Shown here piece after piece: positions 22,373 to 26,877 of a stretch of DNA of 39,427 nt. This stretch comes from Pseudonocardia sp. SCN 73-27. Its GTDB lineage: Bacteria > Actinomycetota > Actinomycetes > Mycobacteriales > Pseudonocardiaceae. The translations under genes were made by a program, and so were the position numbers. Each line of letters starts with the position of its first letter. Position 1 is the stretch's first letter. The stretch spans positions 1 through 39,427 of the forward strand of contig MEGH01000042.1 of assembly GCA_001725415.1 (NCBI GenBank), given 5' to 3'. Below the pieces are notes generated by a model. The model saw only the letters and a program-made list of their open reading frames with translations, ran no database searches and had not been told where the DNA came from.

Positions 22373-22474
22373 ATGCGCAAGTTTCGTCGTCGCGTCGGAC
22401 GCACCCTGAACGGCCTGGTGGAAGGCCTGTCCGTCGTCGCAGGGTGGAACCGCGGGAAGGGTCGCAAGCGCTGA
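22373..22474 (+). CDS. 33-residue basic small protein
   Basis: ATG 22373 follows a near-consensus ribosome-binding site (TGGAGGTAGGC, GGAGG seven bases before the start) and opens a 33-codon frame to TGA 22474. The peptide starts MRKFRRRVGRTLNGL, has a short amphipathic middle (VEGLSVVAGW) and ends in NRGKGRKR; about a third of its residues are Arg or Lys and it has no acidic residue except one Glu. The strong start signal in a 430-bp gap between larger genes argues that it is translated. The charge suggests nucleic-acid, ribosome or membrane binding. I recognise no family. Confidence 0.6.
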   Translation: MRKFRRRVGRTLNGLVEGLSVVAGWNRGKGRKR

Positions 22475-22668: not shown

Positions 22669-24468
22669 GTGATCAGCCGCAGCAAGGACGCCGACATGGA
22701 CCGCGCCGCCACCGGCCTCGGTGGTGGCGCGGTCGACGGTGCCCTGCCCACGCGGTACGCCGCGACCGTGCCGGTACCCGCGACCCGGGCCGCGGCCCCG
22801 GCCGCCGCGCCCGAACCCAGCCTCGCCGAGCGCCTGCTGGACGGGATCGCCGAAGGCGTCGTGGCGTGCGACGAGCGCGGGGTCGTCCGCTCGGCCAACG
22901 AGGTCGCCGTCCGGATGCTGCCCGGCCTGCGGGTCGGTGAGCTGGCCACGGTCGCGATGACGCGGGTCGTCGGCGGGTACACCGACGCCGCGACCCGGCC
23001 CGGGCCGGGGCAGGACGTCGAGCTGGTCCTCGCCGATCGTGCCGTCGCCGTGCGGCGTCGCGCGCTGTCCGGCGGCTGGACCGCCTGGCACCTGCGCGAC
23101 GTCACCGAGGAACGCGCCCGCCTCGACAGCCTGCTGGCCGAGCGCGCCCGGTCGCGGTTCCTCGCCGCGGCCAGCCGCCGCCTCGGCCTGTCGCTGCACC
23201 CCGGCCGCACCGCGCGGGCCGTCGCCGAGCTGGCGGCCGACGAGCTGGCCGAGGCCGCCGTCGTCGTGCTGCCCGTGCACGGCGGCACCGTCGACTGGTA
23301 CCGCTGCGAGCACGACGGCCCGTCGAGCGCGGGCCAGACCACCGCGCGCACGCTGCCCGAACCGGTGGCCCGCGCGCTCGCCGGGCTCGACACCGGCCCG
23401 CAGCTGCTGCTGGCAGGCGAGCTCGACGTCGAGCCGTGGCGGCACACCGCAGCCGCGAGCGGTGCCGCGCTGATGGCGCTGCCCGGCAACGGGAAACCGG
23501 CCGGTGCGCTCGTGCTGCTGCGCTCCGACGCCGGCGACCCGTCCGCACCCGCGTCGGGGGCCACCGACGTGGCGCTCGTCGAGGAGTTCGCGCAGCGCGC
23601 CGGGATCGCGCTGGCCGCCGCCTCGCTGTACGCGGGGCAGGCGCGCACGGCCGCCGTCCTCAAGCGCAGCCTGCTGCAGCCCGAGCTGCCGGTCGTCGAC
23701 GGTGTGACCGTCGGCGCGGCCTACCGGCCCGCCGAGCAGGGCATGCTCATCGGTGGCGACTTCTACGACGTGCACCCCGACCCGTCGGGGCGCGGCGCCA
23801 CGTTCATGCTCGGCGACGTGTGCGGCAAGGGTGTCGACGCCGCCGTCAGCACCGGGCAGCTGCGGCACTCGGTACAGGCCCTGCGCCGGCTGGAGACCGA
23901 CCCGGTCCGCCTGCTCGGCCTGCTCAACGACACGATGCTCGAGTCCACCGCCGACGATGACGATCCCGGCTTCGCGACGGTCGTCATCGGCTCGGCGGTC
24001 CCGCTCGAGTCCGGCGGGTTGCGGCTGCGCCTGGCCGGTGGCGGGCACCCGCCGCCCGTGCTCGTCCGCCGGGACGGCGTCGAGACCGTCGAGATCGGCG
24101 GCACGCTGGTCGGCGCGATCCCGTCGGCCCGGTTCCGGGCGCGCACCGTCGACCTCGCCCCGGGGGAGTCGTGCGTCCTCTACACCGACGGCGTCACCGA
24201 GGCGCGCGGCGGCGTCGACGGACGGGAGGAGTACGGCGAGTCCCGACTGGTCGACCTGCTGGCCGGCTGCCACGTGATGCCCGCGGCGGCGATCGCCGAA
24301 CGGGTCACGCTGCACGCGTCGCGCTGGAACGCGAACGGAAGCCGCGACGACATCGCGGTCCTGGTCGTCCAGGCCCCGCTGCACGCGACGCCGCCGGGTG
24401 CGTCGCGCCGACATCTGCACTCGGTGCGCGTCTCGGAGCCGCCGCGAGGCGAGGAGGGCACCGCGTGA
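22669..24468 (+). CDS. RsbU-type serine phosphatase with PAS and GAF sensor domains
   Basis: The 599-residue protein starts with a low-complexity stretch, then a PAS domain (~52-148: LLDGIAEGVVACDERGVVRSANEVAVRML ... HLRDVTEERA), a GAF domain (~160-325) and a PP2C/SpoIIE phosphatase domain (~335-580). Metal-site motifs are IGGDFYD (362-367), LGDVCGKG with D383, YTDGVTEA and NGSRDDIAVLVV. Such enzymes dephosphorylate STAS anti-sigma antagonists, releasing them to capture an anti-sigma kinase. GTG 22669 is the first start; ATG 22696 is possible. Its stop overlaps the next gene's GTG (GTGA), and a STAS protein lies two genes down as the obvious substrate. No RsbW-type kinase is in the window. 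Confidence 0.87.
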   Translation: MISRSKDADMDRAATGLGGGAVDGALPTRYAATVPVPATRAAAPAAAPEPSLAERLLDGIAEGVVACDERGVVRSANEVAVRMLPGLRVGELATVAMTRVVGGYTDAATRPGPGQDVELVLADRAVAVRRRALSGGWTAWHLRDVTEERARLDSLLAERARSRFLAAASRRLGLSLHPGRTARAVAELAADELAEAAVVVLPVHGGTVDWYRCEHDGPSSAGQTTARTLPEPVARALAGLDTGPQLLLAGELDVEPWRHTAAASGAALMALPGNGKPAGALVLLRSDAGDPSAPASGATDVALVEEFAQRAGIALAAASLYAGQARTAAVLKRSLLQPELPVVDGVTVGAAYRPAEQGMLIGGDFYDVHPDPSGRGATFMLGDVCGKGVDAAVSTGQLRHSVQALRRLETDPVRLLGLLNDTMLESTADDDDPGFATVVIGSAVPLESGGLRLRLAGGGHPPPVLVRRDGVETVEIGGTLVGAIPSARFRARTVDLAPGESCVLYTDGVTEARGGVDGREEYGESRLVDLLAGCHVMPAAAIAERVTLHASRWNANGSRDDIAVLVVQAPLHATPPGASRRHLHSVRVSEPPRGEEGTA

Positions 24469-25526
24469 CCGCATCCCCGACGCTCCCCACCCGGTTCGGT
24501 TCCGTCGCGCCCGAGTTCCTCGAGGCGCTCGGCCGTGCCGACGAATGGCGGGCCTGCGAGCTCGCCCTCGGTCTGCTCGACGACGGTGTGCCCGCGGCCG
24601 ACGTGCTGGTCGGCCTCGTCGGCCCCGCCGCGCGGCGGATCGGTGCGCTGTGGGAGTCGGGCGACTGGAGTGTGGCCCAGGAGCACGCGGCGACGTGTGT
24701 GAACGAACGGGTCGTCGCCGCGATCGGCGCTCGCATCCCCGCCGGGGGTGCGCGCGGCTCGATCGTCGTCGGCTGCCTCGACGGGGAGTGGCACGCCCTG
24801 CCGGCGCGGATCGTCGCGGAGGTGTTGCGCGCCAAGGGGTGGGCGGTCACGTTCCTCGGCGCGAGCGTGCCGGCCGAGCACCTGGCGTCGTACCTGCACC
24901 AGTTCGGTCCCGACGTCGTCGCGCTCAGCTGCGCGCTGCCGATCCACCTGCCCGCCGCGCACCGGACCATCGTCGCCGCGCAGCGCACCGGCACCCCGGT
25001 GCTCGCGGGCGGGCCGGGTTTCGGTGCCGACGGCCGCTGGGCCCGCAGCCTGGGCGTCGACGCCTGGGCCCCCGGGCCGGTCGAGGCCGCGGCGCTGCTG
25101 GAGCAGGAGCCGTGGCGCGGTGCCGCCCCGCCGGCATCGACGATCACCGGTGCGAGCGCGGAGTACGTGGGCCTGCAGGAACGTCGTGGCGCACTCGTCG
25201 CTGCGGTGGTCGACGCGCTGGAGGGGCTCTCCCCGTTCGCGGGCGCACCGGGCAACCCGCTGGCGACCGACCCGGTCCAGGACGCCGAGCAGGTCGTCGA
25301 CTTCCTGGCCGCCGCCACCTATCTGTCCGACGACGAGCTGTTCGCCGACTATCTGCGGTGGCTCGCGTCGGCCCTGAGCTCCCGCGGTATCTCGACCGCC
25401 GCCCTGCACACGGTGCTGGGTGAGCTGGCAGCGGGCCTGCACGACTTCCCTTTCGCGCTCGGCTGCCTGCGGCAGGGTCGCGAGCAGCTGCGACGGGGTC
25501 ACACGAACGGAGGGGACGAGCGTTGA
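24465..25526 (+). CDS. cobalamin-binding sensor protein (CarH/LitR-type B12 module without HTH, extra C-terminal helical domain)
   Basis: This 353-residue protein has a methionine-synthase-type helical cap (~15-92) with W63-x9-E73-H74 (ALWESGDWSVAQEH), the signature of light-sensing CarH/LitR proteins. A Rossmann-like B12 domain follows (~98-215): the axial histidine motif appears as E108-W-H110-A-L-P113 in place of DxHxxG, followed by the SxL-like SCAL at 155-158 and AGGPG at 181-185. The MerR-type DNA-binding domain of CarH is absent. Residues ~225-353 form an extra helical domain (TYLSDDELFADYLRWLASAL) I cannot assign. The start GTG overlaps the phosphatase stop, and its own stop overlaps the STAS start. 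I infer a B12 sensor, possibly photoactive, feeding a partner-switch. Confidence 0.8.
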   Translation: MTASPTLPTRFGSVAPEFLEALGRADEWRACELALGLLDDGVPAADVLVGLVGPAARRIGALWESGDWSVAQEHAATCVNERVVAAIGARIPAGGARGSIVVGCLDGEWHALPARIVAEVLRAKGWAVTFLGASVPAEHLASYLHQFGPDVVALSCALPIHLPAAHRTIVAAQRTGTPVLAGGPGFGADGRWARSLGVDAWAPGPVEAAALLEQEPWRGAAPPASTITGASAEYVGLQERRGALVAAVVDALEGLSPFAGAPGNPLATDPVQDAEQVVDFLAAATYLSDDELFADYLRWLASALSSRGISTAALHTVLGELAAGLHDFPFALGCLRQGREQLRRGHTNGGDER

Positions 25527-25906
25527 GCGGCCATCCGGAGCCACTCCATCTCGACGTCGGGACCGATGTGGACGGCAGGCCGTGCGTCACGGTGCGCGGC
25601 GAGCTGAGCTACACCACCGCACCCGCCCTCGACGAGCAGCTGCGCGCCCTGCCGGGCCCTGGCGACGGGGTCGTGGACGTCGTGCTCGACCTCGCCGGGG
25701 TGTCCTTCTGCGACTCGTCCGGGCTCGCCGCCCTGATCTCCGCGCACCGTCGCACCCGCCGCCGCGGCGGGACGGTGACGTTGCGCGGCCCGCACGGCCC
25801 GATGCGCCGCATCCTGCGGCTGACCGGTGTCGAGGTGCTCTTCGAGATCGAGGAGACGGGCACCGGCGAGGACTCCCGCGTCGAGGCCGCCGGAGGTCAG
25901 GCCTGA
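25523..25906 (+). CDS. STAS-domain anti-sigma factor antagonist (SpoIIAA/RsbV type)
   Basis: The 127-residue protein is a single STAS domain: CVTVRGELSYTTAPALDEQLRAL then VVLDLAGVSFCDSSGLAALISAHRR. D64-S65-S66-G67 is the conserved phosphorylation loop; S66 aligns with the serine phosphorylated in SpoIIAA. In the unphosphorylated form such proteins sequester an anti-sigma kinase. It starts at TTG 25523, overlapping the previous stop (TTGA), with GGAGG upstream. Co-translation with an RsbU phosphatase and a B12 sensor says these are its regulators. The C-terminus (GEDSRVEAAGGQA) is acidic and flexible. Confidence 0.88.
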   Translation: MSGHPEPLHLDVGTDVDGRPCVTVRGELSYTTAPALDEQLRALPGPGDGVVDVVLDLAGVSFCDSSGLAALISAHRRTRRRGGTVTLRGPHGPMRRILRLTGVEVLFEIEETGTGEDSRVEAAGGQA

Positions 25907-26877
25907 GCACGCTCGACCGGCCCGTCCCGACCTTCGCCGACGTCGAGGCAGCCGCCCGCGGGCTGGCCGGGGTCGCGCACCGCACGCCCGTGGTGACGTC
26001 GCGGACGCTCGACGGCATGGTCGGCGCGGCGGTGTTCCTCAAGTGCGAGAACCTGCAGCGCGGCGGTGCCTTCAAGTTCCGGGGTGCCTACACGGCGCTG
26101 TCGCGGCTCTCCCCGGAGCAGCGGGCGGCGGGGGTGCTGGCGTACTCGTCCGGCAACCACGCGCAGGCCGTCGCGCTGGCCGCCCGCGAGCTGGGGATGT
26201 CGGCGACGATCGTGATGCCGCTCGACGCGCCGGCGTCGAAGGTGGCCGCGACCCGGGGGTACGGCGCGGAGGTCGTCACCTACGACCGCTACAGCGTCGA
26301 CCGTGAGGAACTGGCCGCGCGACTCGCCGCCGAGCGCGGTCTCGCCCTGATCCCGCCCTACGACCATCCCGACGTCCTCGCCGGCCAGGGTACCGCGACG
26401 ATGGAGCTGATCGAGGACGCCGGCCCGCTCGACGCGCTGTTCGTGTGCCTCGGCGGGGGCGGCCTGCTGTCGGGGGCGATCCTGGCGGCGCGGGCGCTCT
26501 CGCCGGGGGTGCGCATCCACGGCGTCGAGCCGGAGGCGGGCGACGACGGCATGCGGTCGTGGCAGGCGGGGGAGATCGTCCACATCGACGTGCCCCGCAC
26601 CATCGCCGACGGCGCCCAGACCCAGCACCTGGGCCGCTACCCGTTCGCGATCATCCGCGAGGGTGTCGACGAGATCCTGACGGTGCCCGACGACGCGCTC
26701 GTCGACGGCATGCGGTTCATGGCGAGCAGGTGCAAGCTCGTCGTGGAGCCGACGGGCTGCCTCGCGCTGGCCGGAGTGCTCGCCCGGCGCGACGAGCTGG
26801 CAGGGAAGCGGGTCGGTGTGATCGTGAGCGGCGGCAACGTCGACCTCGACCGGTTCGCGGCCCTCGTCACGGCATAG
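25903..26877 (+). CDS. PLP-dependent threonine/serine dehydratase-like enzyme (fold type II)
   Basis: A 324-residue fold-type II PLP enzyme with the Schiff-base lysine in GGAFKFRGA (K58), SSGNHAQAVALAARELG, the phosphate-binding loop GGGGLLSG and the ending SGGNVDLDRFA. Length and lack of a regulatory ACT domain fit catabolic threonine deaminase, serine racemase or threo-3-hydroxyaspartate ammonia-lyase. The only in-frame start near the family N-terminus is CTG 25903, preceded by GGAGG and overlapping the STAS stop as CTGA, the third 4-bp overlap in this operon. A genuine CTG start is rare. Its link with the signalling genes may be regulatory or only positional; tandem hairpins follow the stop. 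Confidence 0.82.
   Translation: MSTLDRPVPTFADVEAAARGLAGVAHRTPVVTSRTLDGMVGAAVFLKCENLQRGGAFKFRGAYTALSRLSPEQRAAGVLAYSSGNHAQAVALAARELGMSATIVMPLDAPASKVAATRGYGAEVVTYDRYSVDREELAARLAAERGLALIPPYDHPDVLAGQGTATMELIEDAGPLDALFVCLGGGGLLSGAILAARALSPGVRIHGVEPEAGDDGMRSWQAGEIVHIDVPRTIADGAQTQHLGRYPFAIIREGVDEILTVPDDALVDGMRFMASRCKLVVEPTGCLALAGVLARRDELAGKRVGVIVSGGNVDLDRFAALVTA

Follow-up and report, generated by a model that had tools for sequence, protein, structure and literature searches.

A photocobilin gene paired with a SpoIIE/RsbU-type phosphatase gene in Pseudonocardia and other Actinomycetes suggests a light- and B12-gated switch

The window, a 39,427-nucleotide stretch of DNA from the soil actinobacterium Pseudonocardia sp. 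SCN 73-27 (GenBank assembly GCA_001725415.1, contig MEGH01000042.1), carries three consecutive plus-strand genes at positions 22669-25906 that encode a SpoIIE/RsbU-type phosphatase, a B12-binding protein, and a STAS protein. The middle gene encodes a photocobilin, as judged by sequence and fold, and the phosphatase is its constant gene partner. The STAS protein is a looser, optional partner. We consider it probable that the photocobilin gates the phosphatase by contact, that light and the B12 state are the signal, and that the phosphatase acts on the STAS protein. This arrangement suggests that light switches the phosphatase through protein contact and not through a DNA-binding repressor. For the window protein, the interpretation draws on homologues, gene pairing, and predicted models. 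The genes and their junctions are as follows.

22669..24468, plus strand: SpoIIE/RsbU-type PPM phosphatase gene (GTG start, TGA stop; 599 amino acids; Pfam SpoIIE)
24465..25526, plus strand: photocobilin (B12 protein) gene (GTG start, TGA stop; 353 amino acids; match to 8j2x/8j2w)
25523..25906, plus strand: STAS antagonist-like gene (TTG start, TGA stop; 127 amino acids; Pfam STAS_2, NCBIfam ant_ant_sig)
24465..24468, plus strand: GTGA overlap of the phosphatase stop and the photocobilin start (a 4-base-pair (bp) overlap is likewise found here in 66 of 80 related loci)
25523..25526, plus strand: TTGA overlap of the photocobilin stop and the STAS start (such an overlap is found in 18 of 52 loci with STAS)

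An earlier reading made from the letters of the DNA (the sequence-only reading) had described two successive 4-bp overlaps coupling the phosphatase, the B12 protein, and the STAS protein, and both are present. Its motif claims for the B12 protein are also borne out: W63-x9-E73-H74, E108-x-H110, and GG at residues 182-183 are in place, and Pfam gives no MerR DNA-binding domain.

The B12 protein was compared with domain families and solved structures. It matches the Pfam B12-binding (6.9e-21) and B12-binding_2 (3.6e-12) families, and a sequence search of solved structures returned 8j2x and 8j2w with an expectation value (E) of 2e-87 over residues 16-342. The next matches were 8j2y (9.5e-44), the MerR-family B12 protein 8jbs (1.4e-13), 1y80 (7.7e-11), and CarH 5c8a (1.1e-7). 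The top two entries are the light (PDB 8J2X) and dark (PDB 8J2W) structures of SasPcob, the standalone photocobilin of Saccharothrix syringae (PMC10979010). Photocobilins are reported to bind adenosylcobalamin (AdoCbl) and biliverdin side by side; AdoCbl gives a response to green light, and a red-light response is added when both chromophores are bound (PMC10979010). A predicted model of the window protein built from 16 sequences (predicted local distance difference test (pLDDT) 88) has SasPcob as its top fold matches (template modeling (TM) scores 0.85 and 0.82). The two proteins are identical at 166 of 325 aligned residues (51%) over nearly their full lengths. Residues ~232-347 of the window protein make up a helical domain of their own, which can be aligned with the globin domain that binds bilin in photocobilins. 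Three domains are delimited.

24504..24731, plus strand: four-helix bundle with W63, E73, and H74 (residues 14-89; Pfam, SasPcob alignment, model)
24759..25103, plus strand: Rossmann-type B12 domain with E108-x-H110 (cobalt ligand) and H139 (residues 99-213; Pfam, alignment, model)
25158..25505, plus strand: globin-type domain with D273 and W299, counterparts of SasPcob biliverdin-contact residues (residues 232-347; alignment, model, fold match)

The protein has the sequence and fold features of a photocobilin, a CarH-type bundle and Rossmann part fused to a globin-type domain with the W/EH and E/DxH motifs. The seven chromophore residues checked from the text of the SasPcob paper, W61, E71, H72, H108, H137, D270, and W296, correspond to window residues W63, E73, H74, H110, H139, D273, and W299 and are identical in 7/7 cases; all three biliverdin-contact residues (SasPcob H137, D270, and W296) are among them. 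Conservation extends to the 80 nearest homologues, where all five B12-site residues examined (W, E, H, E, H) are each kept in 80/80, H137 in 76/80, D270 in 78/80, and W296 in 78/80. Among 65 SpoIIE-linked proteins of a class-wide sample (both tandem copies of L209/L210 included, L227 left out), the Asp at D270 is found in 53/65, the His at H137 in 53/65, and the Trp at W296 in 64/65. The sequence-only reading had likened the protein to the CarH/LitR B12 photoreceptors. The B12 photosensor part of that comparison stands, as do the B12 motifs it described, but the protein is a photocobilin and not a plain CarH-type domain, and its globin-type last third had been missed. A plain CarH-type identity is ruled out by the SasPcob alignment over residues 16-342, globin domain included; the NCBIfam CarH model scores 53.9 bits against a cut-off of 400, and Pfam gives no MerR match. 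Because of its homology to SasPcob, it is very probable that the window protein senses light. AdoCbl binding, a light response, and control of the phosphatase would be expected of it by analogy with its homologues. A scan of viral contigs with this single protein as query, sensitive to close relatives only, found no viral relatives.

The gene neighborhood was examined in the best 80 of at least 537 relatives (among at least 596 matching stretches). This set was ranked by similarity to the window protein, spans 42-86% photocobilin identity, and includes near-copies (L046/L047). It covers Pseudonocardia, Micromonospora, Actinoplanes, Mycobacterium, Streptomyces, Saccharothrix, Nocardiopsis, and other genera. 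A same-strand SpoIIE gene lies immediately upstream of the photocobilin gene in 80/80 loci, with a 4-bp overlap in 66/80. A same-strand STAS gene lies downstream in 52/80, with a 4-bp overlap in 18/52. An even sample of 394 genomes across the class gave 71 genomes with a match at E <= 1e-35 and 79 rows, which represent 78 scored genes since two rows are halves of one frame-shifted gene; a partial match, L240, was left unscored, and no SpoIIE was seen there. SpoIIE is directly upstream in 64/78 of these genes, and STAS is downstream in 36/64. A phylum sample of 396 genomes, which overlaps the class sample in genomes, had 33 with a match at 40 places, and SpoIIE is upstream in 22/22 of the places within the class. 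Among 61 close genomes, 15 of 16 matches (the window's own excluded) have SpoIIE upstream. As a control, the window genome was checked at its six further B12-binding loci together with 1.5-kb flanks, and neither SpoIIE nor STAS was present; the genome has 14 SpoIIE matches in 6.95 Mb. A rare neighborhood would have spoken against the sequence-only reading, and the pairing proved to be conserved in all 80 best loci and 64 of the 78 class-sample genes. The phosphatase is a likelier contact for the photocobilin than the STAS protein because the STAS gene is away from the downstream spot in 28/80 loci.

Variants of the neighborhood were also seen. In many Micromonospora loci (for example L049, L053, and L060), the SpoIIE-photocobilin pair has one or two additional STAS genes upstream of it that run on the opposite strand. 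In L209 and L210, tandem photocobilin genes lie between SpoIIE and STAS. The photocobilin gene of L227 (genome G650) is split over two frames, by decay or sequencing error. Outside the class, for instance at L182 and L184, there are homologues in which the globin-type match precedes the B12 part or is missing, and SpoIIE is not upstream. These homologues appear to be other photocobilin or B12 architectures.

Trees were used to compare the histories of the sensor and the phosphatase. In a tree of 83 SpoIIE domains, which omitted the weakest of the window genome's 14 matches, the distribution of 64 photocobilin-linked domains needs 1 change compared with 17 in shuffles. Both linked phosphatases of the window genome group with the linked set, away from 11 other SpoIIE domains of the same genome. 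A second tree, of 98 photocobilin-like proteins, accounts for SpoIIE linkage with 3 changes compared with 25 when shuffled, and in it a 72-row set (Shimodaira-Hasegawa approximate likelihood-ratio test 87) holds 61 labeled linked rows, 4 unlinked rows, unlabeled rows, and SasPcob. Photocobilin and phosphatase distances correlate over 61 pairs (r = 0.916; maximum of 2000 permutations, 0.316), and much of this correlation is explained by the shared descent of adjacent genes. Five genomes that carry two modules were examined further: for each copy, the five rows closest by photocobilin were compared with the five closest by phosphatase. The numbers shared were 5 and 5 in G042, 4 and 5 in G643, 3 and 2 in G000, 1 and 4 in G431, and 2 and 0 in G383, so that the agreement is good in two genomes and partial or poor in three. 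The phosphatase looks dedicated to the photocobilin.

The phosphatase matches Pfam SpoIIE at 6.3e-42 (144.1 bits; cut-off 25), and its PPM residues G363, D364, D383, D507, G508, D560, and D561 are unchanged in 48/48 aligned phosphatases. A model from 48 sequences (pLDDT 85) predicts a disordered N terminus followed by a PAS-like domain, a helix (residues 146-172), a GAF-like domain, a second helix, and the PPM domain.

22822..23100, plus strand: PAS-like domain (residues 52-144; model; Pfam PAS_8 0.045, below its cut-off)
23200..23526, plus strand: GAF-like domain (residues 178-286; model; Pfam GAF in relatives, not in the window protein)
23569..23670, plus strand: 34-residue linker helix before the PPM domain (residues 301-334; model; positioned like the RsbU/RsbP linker; proposed contact region)
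23704..24372, plus strand: PPM phosphatase domain (residues 346-568; Pfam, model, fold match to 3ke6)

At E <= 0.01, Pfam assigned SpoIIE to 48/48 of the aligned phosphatases, GAF to 20/48, and PAS_8 to 14/48; the window protein was assigned SpoIIE only. The closest solved structure to the model is the RsbU domain of Rv1364c (3ke6). Residues 52-286 (22822-23526) have weaker fold matches to phytochrome PAS-GAF parts (TM ~0.2, large root-mean-square deviation), a resemblance that probably reflects merely the common PAS-GAF order. By analogy with its relatives, the phosphatase would dephosphorylate a STAS antagonist.

The neighboring STAS protein is a good candidate for that substrate. It matches Pfam STAS_2 at 1.7e-20 (73.4 bits; cut-off 29.2) and the NCBIfam anti-anti-sigma model ant_ant_sig (TIGR00377) at 66.9 bits (cut-off 53.45). 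A phosphorylatable Ser/Thr is present within the motif D64-S65-S66-G67, and the Ser that is phosphorylated would be the counterpart of the one used in SpoIIAA. A Ser or Thr is found in the D-S-S/T-G motif of 39/53 linked STAS proteins, the window protein included. The STAS protein is likely the substrate of the phosphatase. Hidden STAS genes were sought in 15 of the 28 loci without STAS and at the window genome's second copy, among open reading frames of at least 70 amino acids within ~1.6 kb downstream and with HMMER filters off, and none was found (best E 0.68). The sequence-only reading had the B12 or light state modulating dephosphorylation of the STAS protein. The photosensor is indeed encoded beside a phosphatase/STAS pair, and the constant partner turned out to be the phosphatase, with STAS away in 28/80 loci. 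Our own HATPase model detected no anti-sigma kinase in the window, where sigma factors were not searched for, and a sigma-factor output is therefore an assumption. Of 140 scanned sources, which count the control loci as well as the window and its duplicate L001, just 9 have a HATPase match nearby, and the linked anti-sigma kinase of a partner-switching module was not detected with this model. Kinase genes do occur elsewhere in the window genome, which has 46 HATPase_c_2 matches.

These observations lead us to propose the following mechanism. In the dark, the photocobilin would be an AdoCbl-bound dimer that also holds biliverdin if available. Light would break the Co-C bond and change the oligomeric state of the photocobilin, which would touch the co-translated phosphatase in trans at its PAS-GAF-helix part. 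Light and the B12 state would then decide the pairing and activity of two PPM domains, and the active phosphatase would remove phosphate from the neighboring STAS protein, or from another antagonist where the STAS gene is absent. The STAS protein would in turn act on an anti-sigma-type kinase encoded elsewhere. The photocobilin would thus be to the phosphatase what RsbT is to RsbU or RsbQ to RsbP. The light state of SasPcob is reported to be a monomer, and isolated photocobilins acted in trans on a separate cyclase, altering its activity, with one of them splitting the cyclase dimer (PMC10979010). This effect makes the control of a dimer-dependent phosphatase plausible. The predicted order of PAS, GAF, long helix, and PPM domains supports the proposal because similar phosphatases are switched through the linker by partner proteins. 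For the polarity, light-on is our guess because a published photocobilin-cyclase fusion is light-activated, its activity rising more than 10-fold in light (PMC10979010).

Several observations weigh against this proposal. SpoIIE is not upstream in 14/78 scored class-sample genes, and it is upstream in 0/18 of the phylum-sample places outside the class. Two of the 14 exceptions are tandem second photocobilins that follow a first and are themselves followed by STAS; a third, L228, begins just 67 bases from a contig end with its upstream gene out of view. A phosphatase-photocobilin fusion would have been direct proof of coupling, but none was found in the 80 loci or the 79 class-sample rows. The 28 loci of 80 with STAS away from the downstream spot count on the same side, as do the 14/53 linked STAS proteins that lack Ser/Thr at the second motif position. 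The branch dividing the linked phosphatases has support 0, and a single origin for them is therefore not established. The polarity is uncertain because, with SasPcob that lacked biliverdin, light acted on the test enzyme in the reverse direction (PMC10979010).

Three other explanations were weighed. It is unlikely, in our estimate, that the photocobilin chiefly reports the availability of B12, or of B12 and bilin, with AdoCbl occupancy setting the phosphatase and light as a side effect. AdoCbl alone did lower cyclase activity relative to the apo form in the published fusion (PMC10979010), and the red-light channel may be idle in the window genome because it has no PF01126 heme oxygenase. Against this, the adenosyl-pocket W, E, and H that are tied to the photoresponse are kept in 80/80 loci, and the biliverdin Asp is present in 78/80 loci and 53/65 linked class-sample proteins. 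Action of the photocobilin on the STAS protein or its kinase in place of the phosphatase seems quite improbable. In the window, the STAS gene comes directly after the photocobilin gene and overlaps it by 4 bp, and STAS is downstream in 52/80 loci, but the phosphatase is there in 80/80 while STAS is absent from 28, and none was hidden in the 15 searched or at the genome's own second copy.

There is also little likelihood that the genes are co-transcribed only and that the photocobilin has another, unlinked target. Overlaps of 4 bp are common in high-G+C operons, and the window and two related genomes have a threonine-dehydratase gene close behind. That gene, however, is found in 3 of 13 loci searched, which belong to two genomes, whereas the SpoIIE-photocobilin pair is kept across many genera at 42-86% photocobilin identity and recurs in the window genome's second copy. 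Gating of the phosphatase by the photocobilin is the preferred interpretation.

The supply of biliverdin was examined through the PF01126 heme oxygenase family. No PF01126 protein was detected in the window genome (99 contigs, with completeness computed as 99.99%), and three control genomes did match; the window genome has one PF14518 protein, which is a candidate only for bilin supply. In the class sample, PF01126 was found in 39/71 photocobilin genomes compared with 141/323 others (Fisher p 0.089) and in 34/58 genomes with a SpoIIE-linked photocobilin (the L227 genome left out) compared with the same 141/323 (p 0.045); within the genus the figures were 6/9 compared with 6/27 (p 0.036). These tests ignore relatedness, at least 2 of the 39 matches are weak (G355 and G383), and the 39 were counted by eye from two lists. 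PF01126 as a strict photocobilin companion was rejected, the enrichment being merely mild. The Asp at D270 is present in 22/29 linked photocobilins from genomes lacking PF01126 compared with 31/36 from genomes that have it. Given the missing PF01126 and the weak co-occurrence, either the bilin comes from another enzyme or uptake or the switch runs on B12 alone. Published photocobilins that carry B12 only are reported to respond to green and not to red light (PMC10979010), and AbPcob, with a His at the D270 position, is described as a weak biliverdin binder (PMC10979010).

The window genome has a second photocobilin gene, G000:C12:6744-7736 (L023, L037), that is 42% identical and directly behind a SpoIIE gene; no STAS gene was found downstream of it. 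Contig C6 of the same genome (L008, ~1000-1770) encodes a LitR/CarH-like B12 regulator. It carries W-x9-EH and E-x-H and, as judged by eye, a helix-turn-helix stretch resembling that of MerR; its best solved-structure match is LitR 3whp (2.5e-9). In addition to its two photocobilin modules, the genome thus appears to encode a B12 receptor that binds DNA. Two further reading frames flank the trio on the plus strand. Ahead of the phosphatase gene, at 22373-22474, a small basic frame of 33 amino acids (MRKFRRR...) has matches in 3 of the 13 loci searched, from two related genomes. A threonine-dehydratase-like gene, its function named by eye, follows STAS at 25903-26877. A CTG overlapping the stop codon of STAS (CTGA) may be the start of its frame, and its matches in two related genomes (3 of 13 loci searched) begin at residue 1 or 4.

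The function of standalone photocobilins has been called less clear, and STAS, SpoIIE, and PP2C-like phosphatases have been named as potential SasPcob interactors from network analysis (PMC10979010). The family is thus published and these interactors were already suggested; what is new here is the evidence for the phosphatase as the standing partner, a concrete and testable answer for standalone photocobilin function. In the literature searched, which included PMC11796333 and PMC10151467, the phosphatase link had been tested neither by gene order nor functionally, although the 2022 photoglobin paper or the photocobilin supplement may hold such data. In a broader view, for which we see the chances as evenly balanced, SpoIIE-linked standalone photocobilins would form a dedicated class of trans-acting, light- and B12-gated PPM phosphatase switches, photoreceptor counterparts of RsbT and RsbQ, that have spread as a two-gene Actinomycetes cassette, sometimes twice per genome, with various STAS targets and often without a canonical heme oxygenase. 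In hosts of the latter kind, the window's included, the cassette would run on B12 alone or on bilin from another source. A conserved phosphatase partner would place B12/bilin light sensing above the partner-switching networks of Pseudonocardia, Micromonospora, Streptomyces, some Mycobacterium species, and others, and the natural pair of light sensor and phosphatase suggests itself for optogenetics.

The window system has parts in common with several known ones. It shares the domain order of four-helix bundle, B12 Rossmann domain, and globin domain with SasPcob, and a congener of the SasPcob host, Saccharothrix algeriensis (L088), has the same SpoIIE-photocobilin-STAS gene order; chromophore binding and the light response were measured for SasPcob, whereas the window protein is known from sequence and model. 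AbDPcob (PDB 8J2Y) has a homologous photocobilin part (E 9.5e-44) and published light control of an output enzyme, but its diguanylate cyclase output is fused, and it has a His at the biliverdin Asp where the window protein has D273. The W-x9-EH and E-x-H motifs and the B12 domain fold are common to CarH/LitR, from which the window protein differs in having no MerR domain and an extra globin domain. Photoglobins are a further likeness, with globin-B12 fusions grouped with bilin-associated globins (PMC10151467). In RsbU, a partner protein is reported to order the linker into a coiled coil that dimerizes the PPM domains into the active state, and the same linker mechanism was proposed for RsbP with RsbQ (PMC12143880). 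The RsbU/RsbT and RsbP/RsbQ pairs resemble the window system in their PPM phosphatase, N-terminal sensor domains, helical linker, separate switch protein (in the window a proposed one), and STAS substrate. The difference lies in the partner, which in the window would be a photoreceptor, with its switching of the phosphatase predicted from these relatives.

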